DNA of 64,000 bases from Closterium sp. NIES-65 (Eukaryota > Streptophyta > Zygnematophyceae > Desmidiales > Closteriaceae): contig CANXME010000774.1 of the NCBI GenBank assembly GCA_948144175.1, forward strand, positions 372,001 to 436,000. Direction: 5' to 3'. Of this stretch, positions 19,536 to 54,796 are shown piece after piece (the first letter of the stretch is position 1; every line of letters begins with the position of its first letter). A program made the position numbers and the translations under genes. The notes under the pieces were generated by a model. That model was not told where the DNA came from, made no database searches, and saw only the letters and a list, made by a program, of their open reading frames with translations.

Positions 19536-19664
19536 ATGTCAAAATTAGAAGAAAGAAAGAGGATTGAACTAGCAAGAATGAGGATACAAATAGCAAACCC
19601 TAGAAGGGTTGTACTCGCTATAGAGCACCCCACTACAGGCTAGAACAATAAGATAATATTCTGA
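19536..19664 (+). repeat. Non-repeat island, copy 1 of 6
   Basis: A 129-bp sequence unrelated to the 15-bp unit replaces the array after CAGAGG and returns to it at CAGAGGAAGCGC. It holds a 36-codon frame (ATG 19536, TAG 19641-19643) whose product starts MSKLEERKRI and ends AIEHPTTG, is very basic in its first half, and continues the KRKQR repeat frame in phase. That frame is open upstream only to a TAG at 19311, about 110 codons in all. A second frame, continuing AQAEE, ends in VKIRRKKED. A 6-bp inverted repeat, AACCCT (19596-19601) and AGGGTT (19605-19610) with loop AGA, lies inside. The last 21 bp are AT-rich. It is followed by AATCGC and CACCAGC variant units. I do not recognise the sequence or the peptide. 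Confidence 0.95.
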
Positions 19665-22600
19665 CAGAGGAAGCGCAAGTAGAGGAAGCGCAAGCAGAGG
19701 AAGCACAAGCAGAGGAAGCACAAGTAGAGGAAGCGCAAGAAGAGGAAGCGCAAGCAGAGGAATCGCAAGCAGAGGAAGCACCAGCAGAGGAGCGCAAGTA
19801 GAGGAAGCACAAGCAGAGGAAGCGCAAGCAGAGGAAGTGCAAGTAGAGGAAGCACAAGCAGAGGAAGCGCAGGCAGAGGAAGCGTAAGCAAAGGAAGAGC
19901 AAGCAGAGGAAGCGCAAGCAGAGGAAGCGCAAGCAGAGGAAGCGCAAGCAGAGGAAGCACAAGCAGGAAGCACAAGTAGAGGAAGCAGAAGCAGAGAAGC
20001 GCAAGCAGAGGAAGCCCAAGCAGAGAAAGCACAAGCAGAGGAAGCGCAAGCAGAGGAAGCGCAAGCAGAGAAAGCGTAAGCAGAGGAAGCGCAAGCAGAG
20101 GAAGCACAAGCAGGAAGCACAAGTGGAGGAAGCAGAAGCAGAGAAGCGCAAGCAGAGGAAGCCCAAGCAGAGAAAGCACAAGCAGAGGAAGCGCAAGTAG
20201 AGGAAGCGCAAGCAGTGGAAGCGCAAGTAGAGGAAGCACAAGTAGAGGAAGCGCAAGCAGAGGAAGCACAAGCAGGAAGCAGAGGCAGAAGAAGCACAAG
20301 CAGAGGAGCGCAAGCATAGGAAGCGCAAGCAGAGGAAGCACAAGCAGAGGAAGCGCAAGGAGAGGAAGCATAAGCAAAGGAAGCGCAAGCAGAGGAAGCA
20401 CAAGCAGAGGAAGCGCAAGCAAAGGAGCGCAAGCAGAGGAAGCGTAAGCAAAGGAAGAGCAAGCAGAGGAAGCACAAGCAGAGGAAGCGTAAGCAGAGGA
20501 AGCGCAAGAAGAGGAAGCGCAAGCAGAGGAAGCGCAAGCAGAGGAAGCGCAAGCAGAGAAAGCGTAAGCAGAGGAAGCGCAAGCAGAGGAAGCACAAGCA
20601 GGAAGCACAAGTAGAGGAAGCCGAAGCAGAGAAGCGCAAGCAGAGGAAGCCCAAGCAGAGAAAGCACAAGCAGAGGAAGCGCAAGTAGAGGAAGCACAAG
20701 CAGAGGAAGCGCAAGCAGAGGAAGCACAAGCAGAGGAAGCACAAGCAGAGGAGCGCAGGCAGAGGAAGCGTAAGCAAAGGAAGAGCAAGCAGAGGAAGCA
20801 CAAGCAGAAGAAGCGTAAGCAGTGGAAGCGCAAGAAGAGGAAGCGCAAGCAGTGGAAGCGCAAGTAGAGGAAGCACAAGCAGAGGAAGCGCAAGCAGAGG
20901 AAGCACAAGCAGGAAGCACAAGCAGAGGAAGCACAAGCAGAGGAGCGCAAGCAGAGGAAGCACAAGCAGAGGAAGCACAATCAGAGGAAGCGCAAGGAGA
21001 GGAAGCACAAGCAGAGGAAGCGCAAGCAGAGGAAGCACAAGCAGAGGAAGCGCAAGCAGAGGAGCGCAAGCAGAGGAAGCGTAAGCAAAGGAAGAGCAAG
21101 CAGGGGAAGCACAAGCAGAGGAAGCGTAAGCAGAGGAAGTGCAAGAAGAGGAAGCGCAAGTAGAGGAAGCGCAAGCAGAGGAAGCGCAAGCAGAGGAAGC
21201 GTAAGCAGAGGAAGCGCAAGCGGAGGAAGCACATGCAGGAAGCACAAGCAGAGAAAGCAGAAGCAGAGGAGCGCAAGCAGAGGAAGCGGGAGCAGAGGAA
21301 GCACAAGAAGAGGAAGCGCAAGTAGAGGAAGCACAAGCAGAGGAAGCACAAGCAGAGGAGCACAAGTAGAGGAAGCGCAAGCAGAGGAAGCGTAAGTAGA
21401 GGAAGCACAAGCAGAGGAAGCACAAGCAGACGAAGCACAAGCAAAGGAAGCGCAAGTATAGGAAGCGTAAGCAGAGGAAGCGCAAGCAGAGGAGCGCAAG
21501 CATAGGAAGCGCAAGCAGAGGAGCACAAGCAGAGGAAGTGCAAGCAGAGGAAGCGCAAGCAGAGGAAGAACAAGCAGAGGAAGCGCAAGCAGAGGAAGCG
21601 CAAGCAGAGGAAGCGTAAGCAGAGGAAGCACAAGTAGAGGAAGCGCAAGCAGAGGAAGCACAAGCAGAGGAAGCATAAGCAGAGGAAGCACAAGCAGAAA
21701 AAGCGCAAGCAGAGGAAGCGCAAGCAGAGGAAGCGCAAGAAGAGGAAGCACAAGCAGAGGAAGCGCAAGCAGAGGAAGCACAAGCAGAGGAAGCGCAAGC
21801 AGAGGAAGCACAAGCAGAGGAGCGCAAGTAGAGGAAGCGCAAGCAGAGGAAGCGCAAATAGAGGAAGAGCAAGCACAGGAAGTGCAAGCAGAGGAATTGT
21901 TAGAAGAGGAAGCACAAGCAGAGGAGCGCAAGCAGAGGAAGCACAAGCAGAGGAAGCACTAGCAAAGGTAGCGCAAGTAGAGGAAGCACAAGCACAGGAA
22001 GCACAAGCAGAGGAAGCACAAGCAGAGGCAGCACAAGCAGAGGAGCGCAGGCAAAGGAAGCGTAAGCAAAGGAGGAGCAAGCAGAGGAAGCACAAGCAGA
22101 GGAAGCGTAAGTAGTGGAAGCGCAAGCAGAGGAAGCACAAGCAGAGGAAGCGCCAGGAGAGGAAGCACAAGCAGAGGAAGCGCAAGTAGAGGAAGCACAA
22201 GCAAAGGAAGCGCAAGTAGAGGAGCGTAAGCAGAGGAAGAGCAAGCAGAGGAAGCACAAGAAGAGGAAGCACAAGCAGAGGAAGCAGAAGCAGAGGAGCG
22301 CAAGTAGAGGAAGCGCAAGCAGAGGAAGCATAAGCAGCGGAAGCGCAAGCAGAGGAAGCAGAAGCAGAGGAAGCGCAAGCAGAGGAAGCACAAGCAGAGG
22401 AAGGACAACCAAAGAGCACAAGCAGAAGAAGCGCAAACAAAGGAAGCGCAAGTGGAGAAAGCACAAGCAGAGGAAGCACAAGCAGAGGAACCAGAAGCAG
22501 AAGAAGCGCAAGCAGAGGAAGCGCAAGCAGAGGAAGCACAAGCAGAGGAAGCGGAAGTAGAGGAAGCACAAGAAGAGGAAGCACAAGCAGAGGAAGCGCA

Positions 22601-25600
22601 AGCAGAGGAAGCACAAGCAGAGGAAGCACAAGCAAAGGAGCCCAAGCAGAGAAAGCGCAAGCAGAGGAAGCGCAAGCAGAGGAAGCGCAAGTAGAGGAAG
22701 CGCAAGCAGAGGAAGCGCAAGCAGAGGAAGCGCAAGCAGAGGAAGCGCAAGTAAAGGAAGCGCAAGCAGAGGAAGCGTAAGCAGAGGAAGCACAAGCAGA
22801 GGAAGCGCAAGCAGAGGAAGCACAAGCTCAGGAAGCATAAGCAGAGGAGGCATAAGCAGAGAAAGCGCAAGGAGAGGAAGCGCAAGCAGAGGAAGCGCAA
22901 GTAGAGGAAGCGCAAGCAGAGGAAGCGCAAGCAGAGGAAGCACAAGCAGAGGAAGCGCAAGCAGAGGAAGCACAAGCAGAGGAAGCGCAAGCAGAGGAAG
23001 CACAAGCAGAGGAGCGCAAGCAGAGGAAGCGCAAGCAGAGGAAGCACAAGCAGAGGAGCGCAAGCAGAGGAAGCGCAAGCAAAGGATGCACAAGCAGAGG
23101 AAGCACAAGCAGAGGAAGCACAAGCAGAGGAAGAGCAAGCAGAGGAAGCACAAGCAGAGGAAGCACAAGCAGAGGAGCGCAAGCAGAGGAAGCGTAAGCA
23201 AAGGAAGAGCAAGCAGAGGAAGCACAAGCAGAGGAAGCGTACGCAGAGGAAGCGCAAGAAGAGGAAGCGCAAGCATAGGAAGCGCAGGCAGAGGAAGCGC
23301 AAGTAGAGGAAGCACAAGCAGAGGAAGCGCAGGCAGAGGAAGCGTAAGCAAAGGAAGAGCAAGCAGAGGAAGCGCAAGCAGAGGAAGCGCAAGCAGAGGA
23401 AGCGCAAGCAGAGGAAGCACAAGCAGGAAGCACAAGTAGAGGAAGCAGAAGCAGAGAAGCCCAAGCAGAGGAAGCCCAAGCAGAGAAAGCACAAGCAGAG
23501 GAAGCGCAAGCAGAGGAAGCGCAAGCAGAGAAAGCGTAAGCAGAGGAAGCGCAAGCAGAGGAAGCACAAGCAGGAAGCACAAGTGGAGGAAGCAGAAGCT
23601 GAGAAGCGCAAGCAGAGGAAGCCCAAGCAGAGAAAGCACAAACAGAGGAAGCGCAAGTAGAGGAAGCGCAAGCAGTGGAAGCGCAAGTAGAGGAAGCACA
23701 AGTAGAGGAAGCGCAAGCAGAGGAAGCACAAGCAGGAAGCAAAGGCAGAAGAAGCACAAGCAGAGGAGCGCAAGCATAGGAAGCGCAAGCAGAGGAAGCA
23801 CAAGCAGAGGAAGCGCAAGGAGAGGAAGCACAAGCGGAGGAAGCGCAAGCAGAGGAAGCACAAGCAGAGGAAGCGCAAGCAGAGGAGCGCAAGCATAGGA
23901 AGCGCAAGCAGAGGAAGCACAAGCAGAGGAAGCACAAGCAGAGGAAGCATAAGCAGAGGAAGCGCAAGAAGAGGAAGCGCAAGCAGAGGAAGCGCAAGCA
24001 GAGGAAGCGCAAGCAGAGAAAGCGTAAGCAGAGGAAGCGCAAGCAGAGGAAGCACAAGCAGGAAGCACAAGTAGAGGAAGCAGAAGCTGAGAAGCGCAAG
24101 CAGAGGAAGCCCAAGCAGAGAAAGCACAAGCAGAGGAAGCGCAAGTAGAGGAAGCACAAGCAGAGGAAGCGCAAGCAGAGGAAGCACAAGCAGAGGAAGC
24201 ACAAGCAGAGGAGCGCAGGCAGAGGAAGCGTAAGCAAAGGAAGAGCAAGCAGAGGAAGCACAAGCAAAAGAAGCGTAAGCAGTGGAAGCGCAAGAAGAGG
24301 AAGCGCAAGCAGTGGAAGCGCAAGTAGAGGAAGCACAAGCAGAGGAAGCGCAAGCAAAGGAAGCACAAGCAGGAAGCACAAGCAGAGGAAGCACAAGCAG
24401 AGGAGCGCAAGCAGAGGAAGCACAAGCAGAGGAAGCACAAGCAGAGGAAGCGCAAGGAGAGGAAGCACAAGTAGAGGAAGCGCAAGCAGAGGAAGCACAA
24501 GCAGAGGAAGCGCAAGCAGAGGAGCGCAAGCAGAGGAAGCGTAAGCAAAGGAAGAGCAAGCAGGGGAAGCACAAGCAGAGGAAGCGTAAGCAGAGGAAGT
24601 GCAAGAAGAGGAAGCGCAAGCAGAGGAGCGCAAGAAGAGGAAGCGTAAGCAAAGGAAGAGCAAGCAGAGGAAGCACAAGCAGAGATAGCGTAAGCAGAGG
24701 AAGCACAAGCAGAGGAAGCACAAGCAGAGGAAGTACAAGCAGCGGAAGCGCAAGCAGAGGGAGCGCAAGCAGAGGAAGCACAAGCAGGGGAAGCGCAAGG
24801 AGAGGAAGCACAAGCAGAAGAAGCACAAGCAGAGGAAGCGCAAGCAGAGGAAGCACAAGCAGAGGAAGCACAAGCAGAGGAGCCCAAGCAGAGGAAGCGC
24901 AAGCAGAGGAGCGCAAGAAGAGGAAGCGTAAGCAAAGGAAGAGCAAGCAGAGGAAGCACAAGCAGAGATAGCGTAAGCAGAGGAAGCGCAAGAAGAGGAA
25001 GCGCAAGCAGAGGAAGCGCAAGCAGAGGAAGCGCAAGCAGAGGAAGCACAAGCAGAAGAAGCGAAAGCAGAGGAAGCATAAGCAGAGGAAGCGCAAGCAG
25101 AAGAAGCACAAGCAGAGGAAGCACAACCAGAGGAGCGCAAGCAGAGAAAGCGCAAGCAGAGGAAGCTTAAGCAGAGGAAACGCAAGCAGAGGAAGCACAA
25201 GCAGAGGAAGCACAAGCAGAGGAAGTACAAGCAGCGGAAGCGCAAGCAGAGGGAGCGCAAGCAGAGGAAGCACAAGCAGGGGAAGCGCAAGGAGAGGAAG
25301 CACAAGCAGAAGAAGCACAAGCAGAGGAAGCGCAAGCAGAGGAAGCACAAGCAGAGGAAGCACAAGCAGAGGAGCCCAAGCAGAGGAAGCGCAAGCAGAG
25401 GAAGCGCAAGCAGAGGAAGCGCAAGCAGAGGAAGCGCAAGCAGTGGAAGCGCAGGCAGAGGGAGCGCAAGCAGAGGAAGCACAAGCAGAGGAAGCGCAAG
25501 CAGAGGAAGCACAAGCAGAGGAAGCACAAGCAGAGGAGCGCAGGCAGAGGAAGCGTAAGCAAAGGAAGAGCAAGCAGAGGAAGCACAAGCAGAGGAAGCG

Positions 25601-26739
25601 TAAGCAATGGAAGCGCAAGAAGAGGAAGCGCAAATAGAGGAAGCGCAAGCAGAGGAAGCGCAAATAGAGGAAGCACAAGCAGAGGAAGCGCAAGCAGAGG
25701 AAGCACAAGCAGAGGAAGTGCAAGCAGAGGAAGCGCAAGCAGAGGAAGCACAAGCAGAGGAAGCACAAGTAGAGGAAGCGCAAGAAGAGGAAGCACAAGC
25801 AGAGGACGCACAAGCAGAGGAGCCCAAGCAGAGGAAGCGCATGTAGAGGAAGCGCAAGCAGAGGAAGCGCAAGCAGAGGAAGCGCAAGCAGAGGAAGCAC
25901 AAGCAGAGGAAGCACAAGCAGCGGAAGCACAACTAGAAGTAGCGCAAGCAGAGGAAGCACAAGCAGAGGAAGCACAAGCAGAGGAGCGCAAGCAGAGGAA
26001 GCGCAAGTAGAGGAAGTTCAAGCAGAGGAAGCACAAGAAGAGGAAGCGCAAGTAGAGGAAGCACAAGCAGAGGAAGCACAAGCACAGGAAGCGCAAGAAG
26101 AGGAAGTGCAAGTAGAGGGAGTGCAAGCACAGGAGCCCAAGCAAAGGAAGCCCAAGCTGAGGAAGCGCAAGCAGAGGGATCACAAGCAGAGGAAGCGCAA
26201 GCAGAGGCAGCACAAGCAGAGGAAGCACAAGCAGAGGAAGCACAAGGAGAGGAAGCACAAGCAGAGGAGCGCAAGAAGAGGAAGCGCAAGCAGAGGAAGC
26301 GCAAGGAGAGGAAGCGCAAGCAGAGGAAGCGCAAGCAGAGGAAGCACAAGCAGAGGAAGCGCAAGCAGAGGAGCACAAGCAGAGGAAGCGCAAGCAGAGG
26401 AAGCGCAAGCAGAGGAAGCACAATTAGAGGAAGCGCAAGCAGAGGAAGCACAAGCAGAGGAAGCGCAAGCAGAGGAAGCACAAGCAGAGGAAGCACAAGC
26501 AGAGGAAGCGCAAGTAGAGGAAGCACAAGCAGAGGAAGCGCAAGCAGGAAGCACAAGCAGGAAGCACAAGCAGAAGAAGCACAAGCAGAGGAGCGCAAGT
26601 AGAGGAAGCGCAAGCAGAGGAAGCGCAAGGAGAGGAAGCGCAAGCAGAGGAAGCGCAAGCAGAGGAAGCACAAGCAGAGGAAGCGCAAGCAGAGGAGCAC
26701 AAGCAGAGGAAGCGCAAGCAGAGGAAGCGCAAGCAGAGG
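19665..26739 (+). repeat. Array family III block between islands 1 and 2
   Basis: This block introduces landmarks absent from the first 19 kb: GCAGTGGAAGCGC near 20,821 and 24,281, CACATGCAGG near 21,229, GCGCCAGGAG at 22,150, and many 13-bp units (CAAGCAGGAAGC) followed by GTAGAGGAAGCAGAAGC. Family II landmarks return from about 25.2 kb up to island 2. No gene is seen. Confidence 0.85.
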
Positions 26740-26868
26740 ATGTCAAAATTAGAAGAAAGAAAGAGGATTGAACTAGCAAGAATGAGGATACAAATAGCAA
26801 ACCCTAGAAGGGTTGTACTCGCTATAGAGCACCCCACTACAGGCTAGAACAATAAGATAATATTCTGA
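26740..26868 (+). repeat. Non-repeat island, copy 2 of 6
   Basis: Identical by eye to copy 1 over 129 bp, with the 36-codon frame at 26740-26847. Its left flank is shared with copy 1 except for GCGC in place of GTGC. Its right flank keeps the first five units but lacks the AATCGC and CACCAGC variants, so the downstream side has recombined or been deleted. Confidence 0.95.
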
Positions 26869-27797
26869 CAGAGGAAGCGCAAGTAGAGGAAGCGCAAGCA
26901 GAGGAAGCACAAGCAGAGGAAGCACAAGTAGAGGAAGCGCAAGCAGAGGAAGCGCAAGCAGAGGAAGCGCAAGCAGAGGAAGCGCAAGCAGAGGAAGCAC
27001 AAGCAGGAAGCACAAGTAGAGGAAGCAGAAGCAGAGAAGCGCAAGCAGAGGAAGCCCAAGCAGAGAAAGCACAAGCAGAGGAAGCGCAAGCAGAGGAAGC
27101 ACAAGCAGAGGAAGCGCAAGCAGAGGAAGCACAAGCAGAGGAAGCACAAGCAGAGGAGCGCAGGCAGAGGAAGCGTAAGCAAAGGAAGAGCAAGCAGAGG
27201 AAGCACAAGCAGAGGAAGCGTAAGCAATGGAAGCGCAAGAAGAGGAAGCGCAAATAGAGGAAGCGCAAGCAGAGGAAGCGCAAATAGAGGAAGCACAAGC
27301 AGAGGAAGCGCAAGCAGAGGAAGCACAAGCAGAGGAAGTGCAAGTAGAGGAAGCGCAAGCAGAGGAAGCGCAAGCAGAGGAAGCACAAGCAGAGGAAGCA
27401 CAAGTAGAGGAAGCGCAAGCAGAGGAAGCACAAGCAGAGGACGCACAAGCAGAGGAGCCCAAGCAGAGGAAGCGCATGTAGAGGAAGCGCAAGCAGAGGA
27501 AGCGCAAGCAGAGGAAGCGCAAGCAGAGGAAGCACAAGCAGAGAAAGCACAAGCAGCGGAAGCACAACTAGAAGAAGCGCAAGCAGAGGAAGCACAAGCA
27601 GAGGAAGCACAAGCAGAGGAGCGCAAGCAGAGGAAGCGCAAGTAGAGGAAGTTCAAGCAGAGGAAGCACAAGAAGAGGAAGCGCAAGTAGAGGAAGCACA
27701 AGCAGAGGAAGCACAAGCACAGGAAGCGCAAGAAGAGGAAGTGCAAGTAGAGGGAGTGCAAGCAGAGGAGCACAAGCAGAGGAAGCGCAAGCAGAGG
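26869..27797 (+). repeat. Short 929-bp array segment between islands 2 and 3
   Basis: This is the shortest inter-island interval; the island-to-island offset is 1,058 bp. It contains a copy of the family II CAAATAGAGG pair (near 27,250 and 27,280) also found 1,620 bp upstream, near 25,630 and 25,660. The two offsets differ, so this interval is not a simple tandem copy of its left neighbour. No gene is seen. Confidence 0.85.
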
Positions 27798-27926
27798 ATG
27801 TCAAAATTAGAAGAAAGAAAGAGGATTGAACTAGCAAGAATGAGGATACAAATAGCAAACCCTAGAAGGGTTGTACTCGCTATAGAGCACCCCACTACAG
27901 GCTAGAACAATAAGATAATATTCTGA
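27798..27926 (+). repeat. Non-repeat island, copy 3 of 6
   Basis: Identical by eye to copy 1, with the 36-codon frame at 27798-27905. On its left one 15-bp unit is missing compared with copies 1 and 2, and the GAGGGAGTGC landmark abuts the GGAGCAC unit. Its right flank has the AATCGC and CACCAGC variants as in copy 1. Confidence 0.95.
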
Positions 27927-30856
27927 CAGAGGAAGCGCAAGTAGAGGAAGCGCAAGCAGAGGAAGCACAAGCAGAGGAAGCACAAGTAGAGGAAGCGCAA
28001 GCAGAGGAAGCGCAAGCAGAGGAATCGCAAGCAGAGGAAGCACCAGCAGAGGAGCGCAAGTAGAGGAAGCACAAGCAGAGGAAGCGCAAGCAGAGGAAGC
28101 GCAAGTAGAGGAAGCACAAGCATAGGAAGCGCAGGCAGAGGAAGCGTAAGCAAAGGAAGAGGAAGCAGAGGAAGCGCAAGCAGAGGAAGCGCAAGCAGAG
28201 GAAGCGCAAGCAGAGGAAGCACAAGCAGGAAGCACAAGTAGAGGAAGCAGAAGCAGAGAAGCGCAAGCAGAGGAAGCCCAAGCAGAGAAAGCACAAACAG
28301 AGGAAGCGCAAGCAGAGGAAGCGCAAGCAGAGAAAGCGTAAGCAGAGGAAGCGCAAGCAGAGGAAGCACAAGCAGGAAGCACAAGTGGAGGAAGTAGAAG
28401 CAGAGAAGTGCAAGCAGAGGAAGCCCAAGCAGAGAAAGCACAAGCAGAGGAAGCGCAAGTAGAGGAAGCGCAAGCAGTGGAAGCGCAAGTAGAGGAAGCA
28501 CAAGTAGAGGAAGCGCAAGCAGAGGAAGCACAAGCAGGAAGCACAGGCAGAAGAAGCACAAGCAGAGGAGCGCAAGCATAGGAAGCGCAAGCAGAGGAAG
28601 CACAAGCAGATGAAGCGCAAGGAGAGGAAGCATAAGCAGAGGAAGCGCAAGCAGAGGAAGCACAAGCAGAGGAAGCCCAAGCAAAGGAGCGCAAGCAGAG
28701 GAAGCGTAAGCAAAGGAAGAGCAAGCAGAGGAAGCACAAGCAGAGGAAGCGTTAGCAGAGGAAGCGCAAGAAGAGGAAGCGCAAGCAGAGGAAGCGCAAG
28801 CAGAGGAAGCGCAAGCAGAAAGGCGTAAGCAGAGGAAGCGCAAGCAGAGGAAGCACAAGCAGGAAGCACAAGTGGAGGAAGTAGAAGCAGAGAAGCGCAA
28901 GCAGAGGAAGCCCAAGCAGAGAAAGCACAAGTAGAGGAAGCGCAAGTAGAGGAAGCACAAGCAGAGGAAGCGCAAGCAGAGGAAGCACAAGCAGAGGAAG
29001 CACAAGCAGAGGAGCGCAGGCAGAGGAAGCGTAAGCAAAGGAAGAGCAAGCAGAGGAAGCACAAGCAGAAGAAGCGTAAGCAGTGGAAGCGCAAGAAGAG
29101 GAAGCGCAAGCAGTGGAAGCGCAAGTAGAGGAAGCACAAGCAGAGGAAGCGCAAGCAGAGGAAGCACAAGCAGGAAGCACAAGCAGAGGAAGCACAAGCA
29201 GAGGAGCGCAAGCAGAGAAAGCACAAGCAGAGGAAGCACAAGCAGAGGAAGCGCAAGGAGAGGAAGCACAAGCAGAGGAAGCGCAAGCAGAGGAAGCACA
29301 AGCAGAGGAAGCGCAAGCAGAGGAGCGCAATCAGAGGAAGCGTAAGCAAAGGAAGAGCAAGCAGGGGAAGCACAAGCAGAGGAAGCGTAAGCAGAGGAAG
29401 CGCAAGAAGAGGAAGCGCAAGAAGAGGAAGCGCAAGCAGAGGAAGCGCAAGCAGAGGAAGCGTAAGCAGAGGAAGCGCAAGCGGAGGAAGCACATGCAGG
29501 AAGCACAAGCAGAGAAAGCAGAAGCAGAGGAGCGCAAGCAGAGGAAGCGGGAGCAGAGGAAGCACAAGAAGAGGAAGCGCAAGCAGAGGAAGCACAAGCA
29601 GAGGAAGCACAAGCAGAGGAGCACAAGTAGAGGAAGCGCAAGCAGAGGAAGCGTAAGTAGCGGAAGCACAAGCAGAGGAAGCACAAGCAGACGAAGCACA
29701 AGCAAAGGAAGCGCATGTATAGGAAGCGTAAGCAGAGGAAGCGCAAGCAGAGGAGCGCAAGCATAGGAAGCGCAAGCAGAGGAGCACAAGGAGAGGAAGT
29801 GCAAGCAGAGGAAGCGCAAGCAGAGGAAGAACAAGCAGAGGAAGCGCAAGCAGAGGAAGCGCAAGCAGAGGAAGCGCAAGCAGAGGAAGCGTAAGCAGAG
29901 GAAGCACAAGTAGAGGAAGCGCAAGCAGAGGAAGCACAAGCAGAGGAAGCATAAGCAGAGGAAGCACAAGCAGAAAAAGCGCAAGCAGAGGAAGCGCAAG
30001 CAGAGGAAGCGCAAGAAGAGGAAGCACAAGCAGAGGAAGCGCAAGCAGAGGAAGCACAAGCAGAGGAAGCGCAAGCAGAGGAAGCGCAAGTAGAGGAAGC
30101 ACAAGCAGAGGAAGCACAAGTAGAGGAAGCACAAGCAGAGGAAGCACAAGTAGAGGAGCGCAAGCAGAAGATGCGCAAGCAGAGGAAGCAAAAACAGAGG
30201 AATTGCAACGAAAGGAAGCACAAGCAGAGGAAGAACAAGCAAAGGAAGCGGAAGCTGAAGAAGCACAAGCAGAGGAAACGCAAGCAAAGGAAGCACAAGC
30301 AGAGGAAGCACAAGCAAAGGAGCGCAAGCAGAGGAAGCGCAAACAGAGGAAGCGCAAGAAGAGGAAGCACAAGCAGAGGAAATGCAAGCAGAGGAAGCGC
30401 AAGTAGAGGAAGCACAAGCAGAGGAAGCGCAAGTAGAGGACGCACAAGCAGAGGAAGCACAAGCAGAGGAGCGCAGGCTGAGGAAGCGTAAGCAAAGGAA
30501 GAGCAAGCAGAGGAAGCACAAGCAGGGAAAGCGTAAGCAGAGGAAGCGCAAGAGGAGGAAGCGCAAGCAAAGGAAGCGCAAGCAGAGGAAGCGCAAGTAG
30601 AGGAAGCACAAGCAGAGGAAGCACAAGTAGAGGAAGCACAAGCAGGAAGCACAAGCAGAGGAAGCACAAGCAGAGGAAGCAAAAATAGAGGAATTGCAAC
30701 GAAAGGAAGCACAATCAGAGGAAGAACAAGCAAAGGAAGCGGAAGCTGAAGAAGCACAAGCAGAGGAAACGCAAGCAGAGGAAGCACAAGCAGAGGAAGC
30801 ACAAGCAAAGGAAGCACAAGCAGAGGAAGCGCGAGAAGAGGAAGCGCAAGCAGAGG

Positions 30857-42565: not shown

Positions 42566-42694
42566 ATGTCAAAATTAGAAGAAAGAAAGAGGATTGAACT
42601 AGCAAGAATGAGGATACAAATAGCAAACCCTAGAAGGGTTGTACTCGCTATAGAGCACCCCACTACAGGCTAGAACAATAAGATAATATTCTGA
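42566..42694 (+). repeat. Non-repeat island, copy 5 of 6
   Basis: Identical by eye to copy 1, with the 36-codon frame at 42566-42673. It shares the CAAAAAGAGG left-flank variant with copy 4. On the right the AATCGC unit is followed by GTAGAGG rather than GCAGAGG, a private change. Confidence 0.95.
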
Positions 42695-43599
42695 CAGAGG
42701 AAGCGCAAGTAGAGGAAGCGCAAGCAGAGGAAGCACAAGCAGAGGAAGCACAAGTAGAGGAAGCGCAAGCAGAGGAAGCGCAAGCAGAGGAATCGCAAGT
42801 AGAGGAAGCACCAGCAGAGGAGCGCAAGTAGAGGAAGCACAAGCAGAGGAAGCGCAAGCAGAGGAAGCGCAAGTAGAGGAAGCACAAGCAGAGGAAGCGC
42901 AGGCAGAGGAAGCGTAAGCAAAGGAAGAGCAAGCAGAGGAAGCGCAAGCAGAGGAAGCGCAAGCAGAGGAAGCGCAAGCAGAGGAAGCACAAGCAGGAAG
43001 CACAAGTAGAGGAAGCAGAAGCAGAGAAGCGCAAGCAGAGGAAGCCCAAGCAGAGAAAGCAAAAGCAGAGGAAGCGCAAGCAGAGGAAGCGCAAGCAGAG
43101 AAAGCGTAAGCAGAGGAAGCGCAAGCAGAGGAAGCACAAGCAGGAAGCACAAGTGGAGGAAGCAGAAGCAGAGAAGCGCAAGCAGAGGAAGCCCAAGCAG
43201 AGAAAGCACAAGCAAAGGAAGCGCAAGTAGAGGAAGCGCAAGCAGTGGAAGCGCAAGTAGAGGAAGCACAAGTAGAGGAAGCGCAAGCAGAGGAAGCACA
43301 AGCAGGAAGCAGAGGCAGAAGAAGCACAAGCAGAGGAGCGCAAGCATAGGAAGCGCAAGCAGAGGAAGCACAAGCAGAGGAAGCGCAAGGAGAGGAAGCA
43401 TAAGCAGAGGAAGCGCAAGCAGAGGAAGCACAAGCAGAGGAAGCGCAAGCAAAGGAGCGCAAGCAGAGGAAGCGTAAGCAAAGGAAGAGCAAGCAGAGGA
43501 AGCACAAGCAGAGGAAGCGTAAGCAGAGGAAGCGCAAGAAGAGGAAGCGCAAGCAGAGGAAGCGCAAGCAGAGGAAGCGCAAGCAGAGAAAGCGTAAGC

Positions 43600-46500
43600 A
43601 GAGGAAGCGCAAGCAAAGGAAGCACAAGCAGGAAGCACAAGTAGAGGAAGCAGAAGGAGAGAAGCGCAAGCAGAGAAAGCCCAAGCAGAGAAAGCACAAG
43701 CAGAGGAAGTGCAAGTAGAGGAAGCACAAGCAGAGGAAGCGCAAGCAGAGGAAGCACAAGCAGAGGAAGCACAAGCAGAGGAGCGCAGGCAGAGGACGCG
43801 TAAGCAAAGGAAGAGCAAGCAGAGGAAGCACAAGCAGAAGAAGCGTAAGCAGTGGAAGCGCAAGAAGAGGAAGCGCAAGCAGTGGAAGCGCAAGTAGAGG
43901 AAGCACAAGCAGAGGAAGCGCAAGCAGAGGAAGCACAAGCAGGAAGCACAAGCAGAGGAAGCACAAGCAGAGGAGCGCAAGCAGAGGAAGCACAAGCAGA
44001 GGAAGCACAAGCAGAGGAAGCGCAAGGAGAGGAAGCACAAGCAGAGGAAGCGCAAGCAGAGGAAGCACAAGCAGAGGAAGCGCAAGCAGAGGAGCGCAAG
44101 CAGAGGAAGCGTAAGCAAAGGAAGAGCAAGCAGGGGAAGCACAAGCAGAGGAAGCGTAAGCAGAGGAAGCGCAAGAAGAGGAAGCGCAAGCAGAGGAAGC
44201 GCAAGCAGAGGAAGCGCAAGCAGAGGAAGCGTAAGCAGAGGAAGCGCAAGCGGAGGAAGCACATGCAGGAAGCACAAGCAGAGAAAGCAGAAGCAGAGGA
44301 GCGCAAGCAGAGGAAGCGGGAGCAGAGGAAGCACAAGAAGAGGAAGCGCAAGCAGAGGAAGCACAAGCAGAGGAAGCACAAGCAGAGGAGCACAAGTAGA
44401 GGAAGCGCAAGCAGAGGAAGCGTAAGTAGAGGAAGCACAAGCAGAGAAAGCACATGCAGACGAAGCACAAGCAAAGGAAGCGCAAGTATAGGAAGCGTAA
44501 GCAGAGGAAGCGCAAGCAGAGGAGCGCAAGCATAGGAAGCGCAAGCAGAGGAGCACAAGCAGAGGAAGTGCAAGCAAAGGAAGCGCAAGCAGAGGAAGAA
44601 CAAGAAGAGGAAGCGCAAGCAGAGGAAGCGCAAGCAGAGGAAGCGCAAGCAGAGGAAGCGTAAGCAGAGGAAGCACAAGTAGAGGAAGCGCAAGCAGAGG
44701 AAGCACAAGCAGAGGAAGCATAAGCAGAGGAAGCACAAGCAGAAAAAGCGCAAGCAGAGGAAGCGCAAGCAGAGGAAGCGCAAGCAGAGGAAGCGCAAGT
44801 AGAGGAAGCACAAGCAGAGGAAGCACAGGCAGAGGAAGCGTAAGCAAAGGAAGAGCAAGCAGAGGAAGCGCAAGGAGAGGAAGCGCAAGCAGAGGAAGCG
44901 CAAGCAGAGGAAGCACAAGCAGGAAGCACAAGTAGAGGAAGCAGAAGCAGAGAAGCGCAAGCAGAGGAAGCCCAAGCAGAGAAAGCACAAGCAGAGGAAG
45001 CGCAAGCAGAGGAAGCGCAAGCAGAGAAAGCGTAAGCAGAGGAAGCGCAAGCAGAGGAAGCACAAGCAGGAAGCACAAGTGGAGGAAGCAGAAGCAGAGA
45101 AGCGCAAGCAGAGGAAGCCCAAGCAGAGAAAGCACAAGCAGAGGAAGCGCAAGTAGAGGAAGCGCAAGCAGTGGAAGCGCAAGTAGAGGAAGCACAAGTA
45201 GAGGAAGCGCAAGCAGAGGAAGCACAAGCAGGAAGCACAAGCAGAGGAGCGCAAGCATAGGAAGCGCAAGCAGAGGAAGCACAAGCAGAGGAAGCGCAAG
45301 GAGAGGAAGCATAAGCAGAGGAAGCGCAAGCAGAGGAAGCACAAGCAGAGGAAGCGCAAGCAAAGGAGCGCAAGCAGAGGAAGCGTAAGCAAAGGAAGAG
45401 CAAGCAGAGGAAGCACAAGCAGAGGAAGCGTAAGCAGAGGAAGCGCAAGAGGAGGAAGCGCAAGCAGAGGAAGCGCAAGCAGAGGAAGCGCAAGCAGAGA
45501 AAGCGTAAGCAGAGGAAGCGCAAGCAGAGGAAGCACAAGCAGGAAGCACAAGTAGAGGAAGCAGAAGGAGAGAAGCGCAAGCAGAGAAAGCCCAAGCAGA
45601 GAAAGCACAAGCAGAGGAAGTGCAAGTAGAGGAAGCACAAGCAGAGGAAGCACAAGCAGAGGAAGCACAAGCAGAGGAGCGCAGGCAGAGGAAGCGTAAG
45701 CAAAGGAAGAGCAAGCAGAGGAAGCACAAGCAGAAGAAGCGTAAGCAGTGGAAGCGCAAGAAGAGGAAGCGCAAGCAGTGGAAGCGCAAGTAGAGGAAGC
45801 ACAAGCAGAGGAAGCGCAAGCAGAGGAAGCACAAGCAGGAAGCACAAGCAGAGGAAGCACAAGCAGAGGAGCGCAAGCAGAGGAAGCACAAGCAGAGGAA
45901 GCACAAGCAGAGGAAGCGCAAGGAGAGGAAGCACAAGCAGAGGAAGCGCAAGCAGAGGAAGCACAAGCAGAGGAAGCGCAAGCAGAGGAGCGCAAGCAGA
46001 GGAAGCGTAAGCAAAGGAAGAGCAAGCAGGGGAAGCACAAGCAGAGGAAGCGTAAGCAGAGGAAGCGCAAGAAGAGGAAGCGTAAGCAGAGGAAGCGCAA
46101 GCAGAGGAAGTGCAAGCAGAGGAAGCGTAAGCAGAGGAAGCGCAAGCGGAGGAAGCACATGCAGGAAGCACAAGCAGAGAAAGCAGAAGCAGAGGAGCGC
46201 AAGCAGAGGAAGCGGGAGCAGAGGAAGCACAAGAAGAGGAAGCGCAAGCAGAGGAAGCACAAGCAGAGGAAGCACAAGCAGAGGAGCACAAGTAGAGGAA
46301 GCGCAAGCAGAGGAAGCGTAAGTAGAGGAAGCACAAGCAGAGGAAGCACAAGCAGACGAAGCACAAGCAAAGGAAGCGCAAGTATAGGAAGCGTAAGCAG
46401 AGGAAGCGCAAGCAGAGGAGCGCAAGCATAGGAAGCGCAAGCAGAGGAGCACAAGCAGAGGAAGTGCAAGCAGAGGAAGCGCAAGCAAAGGAAGAAGAAG
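43600..46500 (+). repeat. 1,896-bp tandem duplication
   Basis: ACATGCAGG occurs at 44261 and 46157, and GCAGTGGAAGCGC near 43,851 and 45,747, all 1,896 bp apart. The two plus-strand 227-codon frames at 43852-44535 and 45748-46431 are near-identical as a result. 1,896 is divisible by 3, so phase is kept here, unlike most other duplications. Confidence 0.85.
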
Positions 46501-46900
46501 CAGAGGAAGCGCAAGCAGAGGAAGCGCAAGCAGAGGAAGCGCAAGCAGAGGAAGCGTAAGCAGAGGAAGCACAAGTAGAGGAAGCGCAAGCAGAGGAAGC
46601 ACAAGCAGAGGAAGCATAAGCAGAGGAAGCACAAGCAGAAAAAGCGCAAGCAGAGGAAGCGCAAGCAGAGGAAGCGCAAGAAGAGGAAGCACAAGCAGAG
46701 GAAGCGGAAGCAGAGGAAGCACAAGCAGAGGAAGCGCAAGCAGAGGAAGCACAAGCAGAGGAGCGCAAGTAGAGGAAGCGCAAGCAGAGGAAGCGCAAAT
46801 AGAGGAAGAGCAAGCAGAGGAAGTGCAAGCAGAGGAATTGCAAGAAGAGGAAGCACAAGCAGAGGAGCGCAAGCAGAGGAAGCACAAGCAGAGGAAGCAC

Positions 46901-49550
46901 TAGCAAAGGTAGCGCAAGTAGAGGAAGCACAAGCACAGGAAGCACAAGCAGAGGAAGCACAAGCAAAGGCAGCACAAGCAGAGGAGCGCAGGCAAAGGAA
47001 GCGTAAGCAAAGGAAGAGCAAGCAGAGGAAGCACAAGCAGAGGAAGCGTAAGTAGTGGAAGCGCAAGCAGAGGAAGCACAAGTAGAGGAAGCGCCAGGAG
47101 AGGAAGCACAAGCAGAGGAAGCGCAAGTAGAGGAAGCACAAGCAAAGGAAGCGCAAGTAGAGGAGCGTAAGCAGAGGAAGAGCAAGCAGAGGAAGCACAA
47201 GCAGAGGAAGCACAAGCAGAGGAAGCAGAAGCAGAGGAGCGCAAGTAGAGGAAGCGCAAGCAGAGGAAGCATAAGCAGAGGAAGCGCAAGCACAGGAAGC
47301 ACAAGCAGAGGAAGCGCAAGCAGAGGAAGCACAAGCAGAGGAAGCACAACCAAAGAGCACAAGCAGAGGAAGCGCAAGCAGAGGAAGCGCAAGTAGAGGA
47401 AGCACAAGCAGAGGAAGCACAAGCAGAGGAACCAGAAGCAGAAGAAGCGCAAGCAGAGGAAGCGCAAGCAGAGGAAGCACAAGTAGAGGAAGCGGAAGTA
47501 GAGGAAGCACAAGCAGAGGAAGCACAAGCAGAGGAAGCGGAGGCAGAGGAAGCACAAGCAGAGGAAGCACAAGCAAAGGAGCCCAAGCAGAGAAAGCGCA
47601 AGCAGAGGAAGCGCAAGCAGAGGAAGCGCAAGTAGAGGAAGCGCAAGCAGAGGAAGCGCAAGCAGAGGAAGCGCAAGCAGAGGAAGCACAAGCAGAGGAA
47701 GCGCAAGCAGAGGAAGCACAAGCAGAGAAAGCGCAAGCAGAGGAAGCACAAGCAGAGGAGCGCAAGCAGAGGAAGCGCAAGTAGAGGAAGCACAAGCAGA
47801 GGAGCGCAAGCAGAGGAAGCGCAAGCAAAGGATGCACAAGCAGAGGAAGCACAAGCAGAGGAAGCACAAGCAGAGGAAGCGCATGCAGAGGAAGCACAAG
47901 CAGAGGAAGCACAAGCAGAGGAGCGCAAGCAGAGGAAGCACAAGCAGAGGAAGCATAAGCAGAGGAAGCACAAGCAGAAAAAGCGCAAGCAGAGGAAGTG
48001 CAAGCAGAGGAAGCGCAAGAAGAGGAAGCACAAGCAAAGGAAGCGCAAGCAGAGGAAGCACAAGCAGAGGAAGCGCAAGCAGAGGAAGCACAAGCAGAGG
48101 AGCGCAAGTAGAGGAAGCGCAAGCAGAGGAAGCGCAAATAGAGGAAGAGCAAGCAGAGGAAGTGCAAGCAGAGGAATTGCAAGAAGAGGAAGCACAAGCA
48201 GAGGAGCGCAAGCAGAGGAAGCACAAGCAGAGGAAGCACTAGCAAAGGTAGCGCAAGTAGAGGAAGCACAAGCACAGGAAGCACAAGCAGAGGAAGCACA
48301 AGCAGAGGCAGCACAAGCAGAGGAGCGCAGGCAAAGGAAGCGAAAGCAAAGGAAGAGCAAGCAGAGGAAGCACAAGCAGAGGAAGCGTAAGTAGTGGAAG
48401 CGCAAGCAGAGGAAGCACAAGCAGAGGAAGCGCCAGGAGAGGAAGCACAAGCAGAGGAAGCGCAAGTAGAGAAAGCACAAGCAAAGGAAGCACAAGCAGA
48501 GGAAGCAGAAGCAGAGGAGCGCAAGTAGAGGAAGCGCAAGCAGAGGAAGCATAAGCAGAGGAAGCGCAAGCAGAGGAAGCACAAGCAGAGGAAGCGCAAG
48601 CAGAGGAAGCACAAGCAGAGGAAGCACAACCAAAGAGCACAAGCAGAGGAAGCGCAAGCAGAGGAAGCGCAAGTAGAGGAAGCACAAGCAGAGGAAGCAC
48701 AAGCAGAGGAACCAGAAGCAGAAGAAGCGCAAGCAGAGGAAGCGCAAGCAGAGGAAGCACAAGTAGAGGAAGCGGAAGTAGAGGAAGCACAAGCAGAGGA
48801 AGCACAAGCAGAGGAAGCGGAGGCAGAGGAAGCACAAGCAGAGGAAGCACAAGCAAAGGAGCCCAAGCAGAGAAAGCGCAAGCAGAGGAAGCGCAAGCAG
48901 AGGAAGCGCAAGTAGAGGAAGCGCAAGCAGAGGAAGCGCAAGCAGAGGAAGCGCAAGCAGAGGAAGCACAAGCAGAGGAAGCGCAAGCAGAGGAAGCACA
49001 AGCAGAGAAAGCGCAAGCAGAGGAAGCACAAGCAGAGGAGCGCAAGCAGAGGAAGCGCAAGTAGAGGAAGCACAAGCAGAGGAGCGCAAGCAGAGGAAGC
49101 GCAAGCAAAGGATGCACAAGCAGAGGAAGCACAAGCAGAGGAAGCACAAGCAGAGGAAGCGCAAGCAGAGGAAGCACAAGCAGAGGAAGCACAAGCAGAG
49201 GAGCGCAAGCAGAGGAAGCGTAAGCAAAGGAAGAGCAAGCAGAGGAAGCACAAGCAGAGGAAGCGTACACAGAGGAAGCGCAAGAAGAGGAAGCGCAAGC
49301 ATAGGAAGCGCAAGCAGAGGAAGCGCAAGTAGAGGAAGCACAAGCAGAGGAAGCCCAGGCAGAGGAAGCGTAAGCAAAGGAAGAGCAAGCAGAGGAAGCG
49401 CAAGCAGAGGAAGCGCAAGCCGAGGAAGCGCAAGCAGAGGAAGCACAAGCAGGAAGCACAAGTAGAGGAAGCTGAAGCAGAGAAGCCCAAGCAGAGGAAG
49501 CCCAAGCAGAGAAAGCACAAGCAGAGGAAGCGCAAGCAGAGGAAGCGCAA
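46901..49550 (+). repeat. 1,339-bp tandem duplication
   Basis: TAGCAAAGGT occurs at 46901 and 48240, and GCGCCAGGAG at 47091 and 48430, both 1,339 bp apart. Further right the offset falls to 1,280 (GGATGCACAAGC near 47,830 and 49,110), which indicates a 59-bp deletion in the second copy near 48.49 kb. Confidence 0.85.
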
Positions 49551-52399
49551 GCAGAGAAAGCGTAAGCAGAGGAAGCGCAAGCAGAGGAAGCACAAGCAGG
49601 AAGCACAAGTGGAGGAAGCAGAAGCAGAGAAGCGCAAGCAGAGGAAGCCCAAGCAGAGAAAGCACAAGCAGAGGAAGCGCAAGTAGAGGAAGCGCAAGCA
49701 GTGGAAGCGCAAGTAGAGGAAGCACAAGTAGAGGAAGCGCAAGCAGAGGAAGCACAAGCAGGAAGCAAAGGCAGAAGAAGCACAAGCAGAGGGCGCAAGC
49801 ATAGGAAGCGCAAGCAGAGGAAGCACAAGCAGAGGAAGCGCAAGGAGAGGAAGCACAAGCGGAGGAAGCGCAAGCAGAGGAAGCACAAGCAGAGGAAGCG
49901 CAAGCAGAGGAGCGCAAGCATAGGAAGCGCAAGCAGAGGAAGCACAAGCAGAGGAAGCACAAGCAGAGGAAGCGTAAGCAGAGGAAGCGCAAGAAGAGGA
50001 AGCGCAAGCAGAGGAAGCGCAAGTAGAGGAAGCGCAAGCAGAGAAAGCGTAAGCAGAGGAAGCGCAAGCACAGGAAGCACAAGCAGGAAGCACAAGTAGA
50101 GGAAGCAGAAGCAGAGAAGCGCAAGCAGAGAAAGCCCAAGCAGAGAAAGCACAAGCAGAGGAAGCGCAAGTAGAGGAAGCACAAGCAGAGAAAGCGCAAG
50201 CAGAGGAAGCACAAGCAGAGGAAGCACAAGCAGAGGAGCGCAGGCAGAGGAAGCGTAAGCAAAGGAAGAGCAAGCAGAGGAAGCACAAGCAGAAGAAGCG
50301 TAAGCAGTGGAAGCGCAAGAAGAGGAAGCGCAAGCAGTGGAAGCGCAAGTAGAGGAAGCACAAGCAGAGGAAGCTCAAGCAGAGGAAGCACAAGCAGGAA
50401 GCACAAGCAGAGGAAGCACAAGCAGAGGAGCGCAAGCAGAGGAAGCACAAGCAGAGGAAGCACAAGCAGAGGAAGCGCAAGGAGAGGAAGCACAAGCAGA
50501 GGAAGCGCAAGCAGAGGAAGCACAAGCAGAGGAAGCGCAAGCAGAGGAGCGCAAGCAGAGGAAGCATAAGTAAAGGAAGAGCAAGCAGGGGAAGCACAAG
50601 CAGAGGAAGCGTAAGCAGAGGAAGCGCAAGAAGAGGAAGCGCAAGCAGAGGAGCGCAAGAAGAGGAAGCGTAAGCAAAGGAAGAGCAAGCAGAGGAAGCA
50701 CAAGCAGAGGTAGCGTAAGCAGAGGAAGCGCAAGAAGAGGAAGCGCAAGCAGAGGAAGCGCAAGCAGAGGAAGCGCAAGTAGAGGAAGCACAAGCAGAGG
50801 AAGCGCAAGCAGAGGAAGCACAAGCAAGAAGCACAAGCAGAAGAAGCACAAGCAGAGGAGCGCAAGCAGAGGAAGCGCAAGCAGAGGAAGCACAAGCAGA
50901 AGAAGCGAAAGCAGAGGAAGCACAAGCAGAGGAAGCGCAAGCAGAGGAAGCACAAGCAGAGGAAGCACAACCAGAGGAGCGCAAGCAGAGGAAGCGCAAG
51001 CAGAGGAAGCTTAAGCAGAGGAAACGCAAGCAGAGGAAGCACAAGTAGAGGAAGCACAAGCAGAGGAAGCACAAGCAGCGGAAGCGCAAGCAGAGGAAGC
51101 GCAAGCAGAGGAAGCACAAGCAGGGGAAGCGCAAGGAGAGGAAGCACAAGCAGAAGAAGCACAAGCAGAGGAAGCGCAAGCAGAGGAAGCACAAGCAGAG
51201 GAAGCACAAGCAGAGGAGCCTAAGCAGAGGAAGCGCAAGCAGAGGAAGCGCAAGCAGAGGAAGCGCAAGCAGAGGAAGCGCAAGCAGAGGAAGCGCAGGC
51301 AGAGGAAGCGCAAGCAGAGGAAGCACAAGCAGAGGAAGCGCAAGCAAAGGAAGCACAAGCAGAGGAAGCACAAGCAGAGGAGCGCAGGCAGAGGAAGCGT
51401 AAGCAAAGGAAGAGCAAGCAGAGGAAGCACAAGTAGAGGAAGCGTAAGCAATGGAAGCGCAAGAAGAGGAAGCGCAAATAGAGGAAGCGCAAGCAGAGGA
51501 AGCGCAAATAGAGGAAGCACAAGCAGAGGAAGCGCAAGCAGAGGAAGCACAAGCAGAGGAAGTGCAAGCAAAGGAAGCGCAAGCAGAGGAAGCGCAAGCA
51601 GAGGAAGCACAAGCAGAGGAAGCACAAGCAGAGGAAGCGTAAGCAGAGGAAGCGCAAGAAGAGGAAGCGCAAGCAGAGGAGCGCAAGAAGAGGAAGCGTA
51701 AGCAAAGGAAGAGCAAGCAGAGGAAGCACAAGCAGAGGTAGCGTAAGCAGAGGAAGCGCAAGAAGAGGAAGCGCAAGCAGAGGAAGCGCAAGCAGAGGAA
51801 GCGCAAGTAGAGGAAGCACAAGCAGAGGAAGCGCAAGCAGAGGAAGCACAAGCAGGAAGCACAAGCAGAAGAAGCATAAGCAGAGGAGCGCAAGCAGAGG
51901 AAGCGCAAGCAGAGGAAGCACAAGCAGAAGAAGCGAAAGCAGAGGAAGCACAAGCAGAGGAAGCGCAAGCAGAGGAAGCACAAGCGGAGGAAGCACAACC
52001 AGAGGAGCGCAAGCAGAGGAAGCGCAAGCAGAGGAAGCACAAGCAGAGGAAACGCAAGCAGAGGAAGCACAAGTAGAGGAAGCACAAGCAGAGGAAGCAC
52101 AAGCAGCGGATGCGCAAGCAGAGGAAGCGCAAGCAGAGGAAGCACAAGCAGGGGAAGCGCAAGGAGAGGAAGCACAAGCAGAAGAAGCACAAGCAGAGGA
52201 AGCGCAAGCAGAGGAAGCACAAGCAGAGGAAGCACAAGCAGAGGAGCCTAAGCAGAGGAAGCGCAAGCAGAGGAAGCGCAAGCAGAGGAAGCGCAAGCAG
52301 AGGAAGCGCAAGCAGAGGAAGCGCAAGCAGAGGAAGCACAAGCAGAGGAAGCGCAAGCAGAGGAAGCACAAGCAGAGGAAGCACAAGCAGAGGAGCGCA

Positions 52400-54560
52400 G
52401 GCAGAGGAAGCTTAAGCAAAGGAAGAGCAAGCAGAGGAAGCACAAGCAGAGGAAGCGTAAGCAATGGAAGCGCAAGAAGAGGAAGCGCAAATAGAGGAAG
52501 CGCAAGCAGAGGAAGCGCAAATAGAGGAAGCACAAGCAGAGGAAGCGCAAGCAGAGGAAGCACAAGCAGAGGAAGTGCAAGCAGAGGAAGCGCAAGCAGA
52601 GGAAGCGCAAGCAGAGGAAGCACAAGCAGAGGAAGCACAAGTAGAGGAAGCGCAAGCAGAGGAAGCACAAGCAGAGGACGCACAAGCAGAGGAGCCCAAG
52701 CAGAGGAAGCGCATGTAGAGGAAGCGCAAGCAGAGGAAGCGCAAGCAGAGGAAGCGCAAGCAGAGGAAGCACAAGCAGAGGAAGCACAAGCAGCGGAAGC
52801 ACAACTAGAAGAAGCGCAAGCAGAGGAAGCACAAGCAGAGGAAGCACAAGCAGAGGAGCGCAAGCAGAGGAAGCGCAAGTAGAGGAAGTTCAAGCAGAGG
52901 AAGCACAAGAAGAGGAAGCGCAAGTAGAGGAAGCACAAGTAGAGGAAGCACAAGCACAGGAAGCGCAAGAAGAGGAAGTGCAAGTAGAGGGAGTGCAAGC
53001 ACAGGAGCCCAAGCAAAGGAAGCCCAAGCTGAGGAAGCGCAAGCAGAGGGATCACAAGCAGAGGAAGCGCAAGCAGAGGCAGCACAAGCAGAGGAAGCAC
53101 AAGCAGAGGAAGCACAAGGAGAGGAAGCACAAGCAGAGGAGCGCAAGCAGAGGAAGCGCAAGCAGAGGAAGCGCAAGGAGAGGAAGCGCAAGCAGAGGAA
53201 GCGCAAGCAGAGGAAGCACAAGCAGAGGAAGCGCAAGCAGAGGAAGCACAAGCAGAGGAAGCACAAGCAGAGGAAGCGCAAGTAGAGGAAGCACAAGCAG
53301 AGGAAGCGCAAGCAGGAAGCACAAGCAGGAAGCACAAGCAGAAGAAGCACAAGCAGAGGAGCGCAAGTAGAGGAAGCGCAAGAAGAGGAAGCGCAAGCAG
53401 AGGAAGCGCAAGCAGAGGAAGCACAAGCAGAGGAAGCGCAAGCAGAGGAAGCACAAGCAGAGGAAGCACAAGCAGAGGAGCGCAGGCAGAGGAAGCGTAA
53501 GCAAAGGAAGAGCAAGCAGAGGAAGCACAAGCAGAGGAAGCGTAAGCAATGGAAGCGCAAGAAGAGGAAGCGCAAATAGAGGAAGCGCAAGCAGAGGAAG
53601 CGCAAATAGAGGAAGCACAAGCAGAGGAAGCGCAAGCAGAGGAAGCACAAGCAGAGGAAGTGCAAGCAGAGGAAGCGCAAGCAGAGGAAGCGCAAGCAGA
53701 GGAAGCACAAGCAGAGGAAGCACAAGTAGAGGAAGCGCAAGCAGAGGAAGCACAAGCAGAGGACGCACAAGCAGAGGAGCCCAAGCAGAGGAAGCGCATG
53801 TAGAGGAAGCGCAAGCAGAGGAAGCGCAAGCAGAGGAAGCGCAAGCAGAGGAAGCACAAGCAGAGGAAGCACAAGCAGCGGAAGCACAACTAGAAGAAGC
53901 GCAAGCAGAGGAAGCACAAGCAGAGGAAGCACAAGCAGAGGAGCGCAAGCAGAGGAAGCGCAAGTAGAGGAAGTTCAAGCAGAGGAAGCACAAGAAGAGG
54001 AAGCGCAAGTAGAGGAAGCACAAGTAGAGGAAGCACAAGCACAGGAAGCGCAAGAAGAGGAAGTGCAAGTAGAGGGAGTGCAAGCACAGGAGCCCAAGCA
54101 AAGGAAGCCCAAGCTGAGGAAGCGCAAGCAGAGGGATCACAAGCAGAGGAAGCGCAAGCAGAGGCAGCACAAGCAGAGGAAGCACAAGCAGAGGAAGCAC
54201 AAGGAGAGGAAGCACAAGCAGAGGAGCGCAAGCAGAGGAAGCGCAAGCAGAGGAAGCGCAAGGAGAGGAAGCGCGAGCAGAGGAAGCGCAAGCAGAGGAA
54301 GCACAAGCAGAGGAAGCGCAAGCAGAGGAAGCACAAGCAGAGGAAGCACAAGCAGAGGAAGCGCAAGTAGAGGAAGCACAAGCAGAGGAAGCGCAAGCAG
54401 GAAGCACAAGCAGGAAGCACAAGCAGAAGAAGCACAAGCAGAGGAGCGCAAGTAGAGGAAGCGCAAGCAGAGGAAGCGCAAGGAGAGGAAGCGCAAGCAG
54501 AGGAAGCGCAAGCAGAGGAAGCACAAGCAGAGGAAGCGCAAGCAGAGGAGCACAAGCAGA
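52400..54560 (+). repeat. 1,085-bp tandem duplication of family II
   Basis: GCATGTAGAGG occurs at 52711 and 53796, and the GTAGAGGGAGTGC landmark near 52,985 and 54,070, both 1,085 bp apart. A more distant relative lies 12,190 bp upstream at 40521. Confidence 0.85.
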
Positions 54561-54667
54561 GGAAGCGCAAGCAGAGGAAGCGCAAGTAGAGGAAGCACAA
54601 GCAGAGGAAGCGCAGGCAGAGGAAGCGTAAGCAAAGGAAGAGCAAGCAGAGGAAGCGCAAGCAGAGG

Positions 54668-54796
54668 ATGTCAAAATTAGAAGAAAGAAAGAGGATTGAA
54701 CTAGCAAGAATGAGGATACAAATAGCAAACCCTAGAAGGGTTGTACTCGCTATAGAGCACCCCACTACAGGCTAGAACAATAAGATAATATTCTGA
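54668..54796 (+). repeat. Non-repeat island, copy 6 of 6
   Basis: Identical by eye to copy 1, with the 36-codon frame at 54668-54775. Its left flank is different from all others: the CGTAAGCAAAGG composite motif lies about two units away and the GGAGCAC unit is absent. On the right the AATCGC variant is AATTGC and CACCAGC is kept. Confidence 0.95.

Follow-up and report, generated by a model that had tools for sequence, protein, structure and literature searches.

The six identical islands that interrupt a 15-bp satellite of Closterium sp. NIES-65 are copies of a 130-bp solo LTR, running TG...CA on the minus strand, of a small and recently active retrotransposon. Very probably, a single insertion was followed by recombination between its two LTRs and then by block duplication within the satellite, with the six copies carried along as passengers. 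The window, i.e., the whole stretch of 64,000 nucleotides that was analysed, covers positions 372001-436000 of a contig of 1.23 Mb (C773), and the genome assembly searched comprises 874 Mb in 2400 contigs.

Six base-for-base identical islands of 129 bp at irregular spacings had been described in an earlier note on this DNA, and both observations are borne out: the 129-bp string is found exactly at 19536, 26740, 27798, 37354, 42566 and 54668, and an exact search of the whole window gave no further occurrence on the plus strand. That the islands are LTRs is absent from this earlier reading. Their natural unit is 130 bp, offset by one base from the 129-bp call (19537-19666 and so on); the first base of the 129-bp string is part of a target-site duplication (TSD), while the final two bases of the LTR, CA, had been omitted. 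All six window copies possess the TG...CA ends of one LTR and are bordered on both sides by the same 5-bp TSD, GAGGA, an anatomy that is directly observed:

19537..19666, minus strand: solo LTR copy 1, TG...CA, 130 bp, TSD GAGGA at 19532-19536 and 19667-19671
26741..26870, minus strand: solo LTR copy 2, TSD GAGGA, left flank shared, right flank breaking 75-98 bp from the LTR
27799..27928, minus strand: solo LTR copy 3, TSD GAGGA, right flank shared, left flank breaking 25 bp from the LTR
37355..37484, minus strand: solo LTR copy 4, TSD GAGGA
42567..42696, minus strand: solo LTR copy 5, TSD GAGGA, some flank variants in common with copy 4
54669..54798, minus strand: solo LTR copy 6, TSD GAGGA

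A flanking 5-bp repeat in a tandem array could by itself be a phase effect. That GAGGA is a true TSD is supported by the family elsewhere in the genome, since seven complete elements and one solo LTR found there have 5-bp TSDs as well. The surrounding satellite is the following:

282..64000, plus strand: 15-bp satellite, unit AGAGGAAGCGCAAGC (TRF)

According to TRF, it starts at about 282 and runs through the end of the window, with the islands interrupting it. Beyond the window it continues in the same orientation up to contig position 445.7 kb, which makes 73 kb in total, and is then inverted. Plus-strand frames of at least 300 aa number only two (357 and 325 aa), and a coding reading was rejected, the long minus-strand frames being read as an effect of stop scarcity in the repeat. 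No tRNA was found across the window, and a search for an RNA gene in 19300-19900, on both strands and at E up to 1, gave no Rfam match. A plasmid search returned four short matches (E=4), and neither the bacterial and archaeal contigs nor the viral contigs, searched with one pattern each, contained an exact match.

The edge of the array (1-281) looks unique but is a high-copy repeat, the best 40 of 2409 first-look candidates scoring 97-100 %, and copies of it also adjoin satellite elsewhere on C773 and on a second contig, C1652. Over its initial 11 kb, the array contains nine occurrences of a variant motif of 19 bp, either GGAGCTGARRAGTCACAAC or a form close to it:

2196, 3493, 3807, 6218, 7397, 7681, 9051, 10971 and 11196 (span 2196-11214): 19-bp motif of the GGAGCTGARRAGTCACAAC type, from a rare-word screen

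The same screen listed none past the first 11 kb, and the motif may mark a separate block layer.

A search of the rest of the genome for the island, as suggested in the earlier note, did find identical LTRs outside the window, and these lie in complete elements. It produced 1057 first-look candidates in the 874 Mb, and the best 40, which were scored, are all 100 % identical to the island; six of these places are in the window and 34 outside. Nine of the 34 listed outside loci with an exact copy were read (L001-L008 and L017), together with one divergent locus (L041). Satellite was absent around the eight outside loci that were fetched (satellite words at most 0.9 %). At seven of the nine exact-copy loci the element is complete, measures 1469-1588 bp and sits between perfect 5-bp TSDs, no two elements having the same one. 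L004 is, like the islands, a solo LTR, but flanked by a different TSD, TTGCT, and at L003 the fetched stretch showed no second LTR. The divergent tenth locus is complete as well (1450 bp), its LTRs being 93.9 % alike and its TSD having one mismatch.

In each of the seven complete elements with perfect TSDs, one LTR matches the island in every base and its partner is 96.9-100 % alike (identical in three elements, with one substitution in three and at 96.9 % in one). All seven carry TGCTATCAGAGC as primer-binding site (PBS) immediately after the 5' LTR and the purine-rich tract (PPT) GGCTATGGGGGTG directly before the 3' LTR. Copia elements carry an initiator-methionine PBS from which the former differs by one base. 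The internal regions are 1.2-1.3 kb long with a G+C content of 0.68-0.69 (four elements measured), and the longest stop-to-stop frame of each of three internal regions matched no Pfam family at E up to 1. The family is a small, recently active and apparently non-autonomous LTR retrotransposon.

Retrozymes are characterized by a hammerhead ribozyme in the LTR. No Rfam match to a hammerhead was found in 19300-19900 on either strand at E up to 1. TRIMs (terminal-repeat retrotransposons in miniature; Genome Biol 2016, PMC4717578) are similar in being small LTR elements in which no retrotransposon protein is found, with a TSD that is different for each copy and with solo LTRs. However, the strict size limit given there is under 1500 bp, and only two of the seven complete elements (1469 and 1492 bp) are below it while five measure 1522-1588 bp; the G+C-rich internal region is a further difference. 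The family is not filed here as a strict TRIM. The SMART element FRetro129 of grasses (PLoS One 2012, PMC3281118), compared by description, likewise combines short LTRs, a 5-bp TSD, a PBS and a PPT with the absence of a protein, and has solo LTRs with 5-bp TSDs. It is 292 bp long with LTRs of 85 bp, in comparison with about 1.5 kb and 130 bp here.

The 15-bp units next to the islands had been thought to vary freely. This does not hold: on nine of the twelve island sides, neighbouring units agree in order and in particular variants, and flank divergence stays at about 0.7-2.3 % for a distance of 0.3 to at least 1.5 kb. The comparison of divergence inside and outside the islands, run with the flanks aligned outward in island-anchored register and gaps counted as differences, thus confirmed the absence of changes inside but not the supposed contrast with a variable outside, which is near-identical too. 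At sharp breaks, flank divergence leaps from this level to roughly 8-18 %, and roughly 8-18 differences per 100 bp is also the level between unrelated parts of the array.

Designating the islands by the starts of their 129-bp strings, the right flanks of 37354 and 42566 show 11 differences over 1300 bp and those of 19536 and 27798 show 23 over 1500 bp, while the left flanks of 19536 and 42566 show seven over 300 bp. A right flank of at least 1.25 kb is common to 19536, 27798, 37354 and 42566, and a left flank of about 0.85 kb to 19536, 26740 and 37354. Near breakpoints are found on three of the twelve sides, to the right of 26740 (at 75-98 bp), to the left of 27798 (at 25 bp) and to the left of 54668. 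In this last case the shared block resumes to the left of a 75-bp stretch of which the window holds six further exact copies, seven in total. This stretch and an example of an island-carrying block are:

54594..54668, plus strand: extra 75 bp of satellite between LTR copy 6 and its shared left flank
19271..20585, plus strand: duplicated block that carries an island and matches 42301-43615 with an exact-match cover of 0.96

In all, 78 % of the array lies in chained blocks of at least 500 bp that closely match another place in the window, so the blocks that carry islands are typical of it. There are 96 such block pairs, the longest of 1.8 kb, and the exact-match cover is 0.82-0.99 in the longest 45. 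The changes in the flanks look like plain point mutations, 22 of the 40 private ones being C>T or G>A. Conversion by neighbouring units is unsupported as their source, derived flank words matching other units 18 times compared with 16.1 expected by chance. CpG decay was rejected as the main cause of flank divergence, only 4 of 29 and 3 of 14 substitutions being CpG transitions.

The proposed history would begin with a small non-autonomous LTR retrotransposon that entered one 15-bp satellite array once, duplicating GAGGA, and that was reduced to a solo LTR of 130 bp by LTR-LTR recombination. Blocks of about 0.5-2 kb would later have been duplicated within the array, by unequal exchange or replication slippage, and the LTR copied along with the surrounding units, the outcome being six irregularly spaced LTR copies in the C773 array. 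The order of these events and the exact recombination pathway are what we infer; the common TSD and the common flanks are observed. A single insertion with subsequent block duplication would account at once for the irregular spacing and for what the copies have in common, namely TSD, orientation and flanks. With duplications this recent and a target this short, the islands would have remained identical. If plants accumulate about 1.3e-8 substitutions per site per year, the flank divergence of 0.7-2.3 % would correspond to roughly 0.3-0.9 million years, a figure to be taken as an order of magnitude only. The LTR is best explained as a passenger with no demonstrated function, and the islands as ordinary repeat turnover and not as a specially conserved element. 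Of the alternatives offered in the earlier note, a recent spread together with the blocks is favoured, given that the copies have flanks and TSD in common and that a sister array contains a single copy; selection or gene conversion is not needed.

It counts against this history that no island changes were found where 3.4 were expected and that two sets of flanks lack any unchanged window of 130 bp, as do four divergent copies on two short contigs, described below. The expectation is based on the flanks, where 7550 copy-bases contain 40 private substitutions, with a correction for G+C content (0.38 in the island, 0.55 in the flanks). If a star tree is assumed, the absence of private changes from the 780 copy-bases of the six islands has P=0.033; adding the copy on C1652 gives one change against 4.0 expected (P=0.093). 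The expected number is probably overstated, since a star tree was assumed though two copies share some flank changes; in addition, the island was selected for testing on account of its identity. Unchanged 130-bp windows amount to 22 of 1151 in the right flanks of four copies and 80 of 721 in the left flanks of three, and to 0 of 221 in the right flanks of five copies and 0 of 151 in the left flanks of four. The evidence for special conservation of the islands is weak at most.

A lack of changes would also arise if gene conversion among LTR copies, exchanging solely with other LTRs, outpaced the divergence of the satellite flanks, and the 34 other identical LTRs listed could act as donors. We consider this unlikely, given that the deficit is borderline in a region picked for its identity, that flank windows in two sets are unchanged likewise, and that the C1652 copy does have a substitution. 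It is also improbable that the LTR acts as an anchor of unique sequence within a simple satellite, its copies recombining with or converting each other, staying identical and starting or ending block duplications. What may bear on this idea is that three of the twelve island flanks break within about 100 bp of the LTR.

The array on C1652 matches that of the window and has the left edge in common with it. The two are colinear at both ends, the C1652 stretch 1-2880 with window 1-2895 and 17368-18234 with 72465-73346 in the frame of the window. From the left edge to the inversion joint, the array measures 73 kb on C773 versus 18 kb on C1652, and it contains six islands on the former versus one on the latter, this one with one substitution; genome-wide junction searches listed no second island on C1652. 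Chains of at least 500 bp match 96 % of the C1652 stretch versus 53 % of the C773 stretch. The inversion joint is nearly the same sequence at 445.7 kb on C773 (L010) and at 881.2 kb on C1652 (L038), with differences at about 3 of 260 bases as counted by eye. Such similarity of the joints makes it probable that the satellite was inverted before the two arrays came to differ in length. Array-edge pieces of the two contigs, which are partly satellite, are 97.5 % alike over 1074 columns (an alignment that leaves outside 430-445 bases at the outer end) and 98.9 % alike over 3282 columns. Whether C1652 represents the other haplotype or a duplicated copy, the island number differs along with array length. 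We infer expansion on C773 rather than contraction on C1652, two arrays being unable to tell growth on the one from loss on the other.

Four more copies (L035, L036, L039 and L040) lie on C1564 (19 kb) and C1524 (25 kb), short contigs in which the same satellite abounds. These copies differ from the island by anything from two gaps to 11 mismatches plus 4 gap openings, with indels and with substitutions towards satellite words. This suggests consensus error or poor consensus quality, and because of their many indels these copies were excluded from the rate test. Searches for the left and for the right junction, each allowing up to 3 mismatches, together with reading of the contigs, yield 11 satellite-embedded LTR copies in the assembly, six here, one on C1652, two on C1564 and two on C1524, a total that misses more diverged junctions. 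An rbcL protein encoded in the assembly aligns along all of its 475 residues with rubisco large chains of the PDB, best with 9chz and 4hhh, which points to a plant. Elsewhere in the assembly, RuBisCO_large has 20 whole-domain matches on nine contigs, with up to four per contig:

C75, C97, C162, C265, C824, C1848, C1961, C2174 and C40: contigs with RuBisCO_large, probably plastid contigs or plastid DNA transfers

Tandem arrays are difficult to assemble, and the two short satellite contigs do look error-prone. That the assembler repeated one stretch several times is nevertheless very unlikely for the six copies on C773, which differ in flank substitutions and breakpoints and lie on a contig of 1.23 Mb. 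Six separate insertions of the same element into the same satellite motif would be favoured by the youth of the family and by the very many similar targets in the satellite, but are highly improbable and largely refuted by the shared flanks: on one side or both, specific flank unit variants of each copy recur beside other copies for hundreds of bases, and the six agree in orientation and in TSD. Selection for an array function, as promoter of satellite transcripts, protein-binding site or replication origin, would suit six identical copies but is hardly credible for the LTR of a dispersed family that has no Rfam match (19300-19900, E up to 1), non-identical copies on other contigs of the satellite and just one copy in the sister array stretch.

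In the centromeres of Arabidopsis, LTR retrotransposons inside satellite arrays were copied by satellite recombination, as Wlodzimierz and colleagues reportedly described in 2023. The elements there are Gypsy-type ATHILA and the satellites of 178 bp, whereas here a short non-autonomous LTR is found in a 15-bp satellite. In rye (BMC Genomics 2016, PMC4857426), solo LTRs are enriched beside tandem arrays, and co-amplification appears in the title; the elements flank arrays of the satellites pSc200 and pSc250, while in Closterium one LTR lies within the 15-bp array. It is already known that solo LTRs occur near or within satellites and are co-amplified with them, and the present array is a clean example of a known principle. 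A single insertion would have tagged the satellite, and the tag indicates that change in the array proceeds by duplicating blocks about one kilobase long. How much such arrays may differ is illustrated by the two versions present in a single assembly, one with six tags in 73 kb and the other with one tag in 18 kb.
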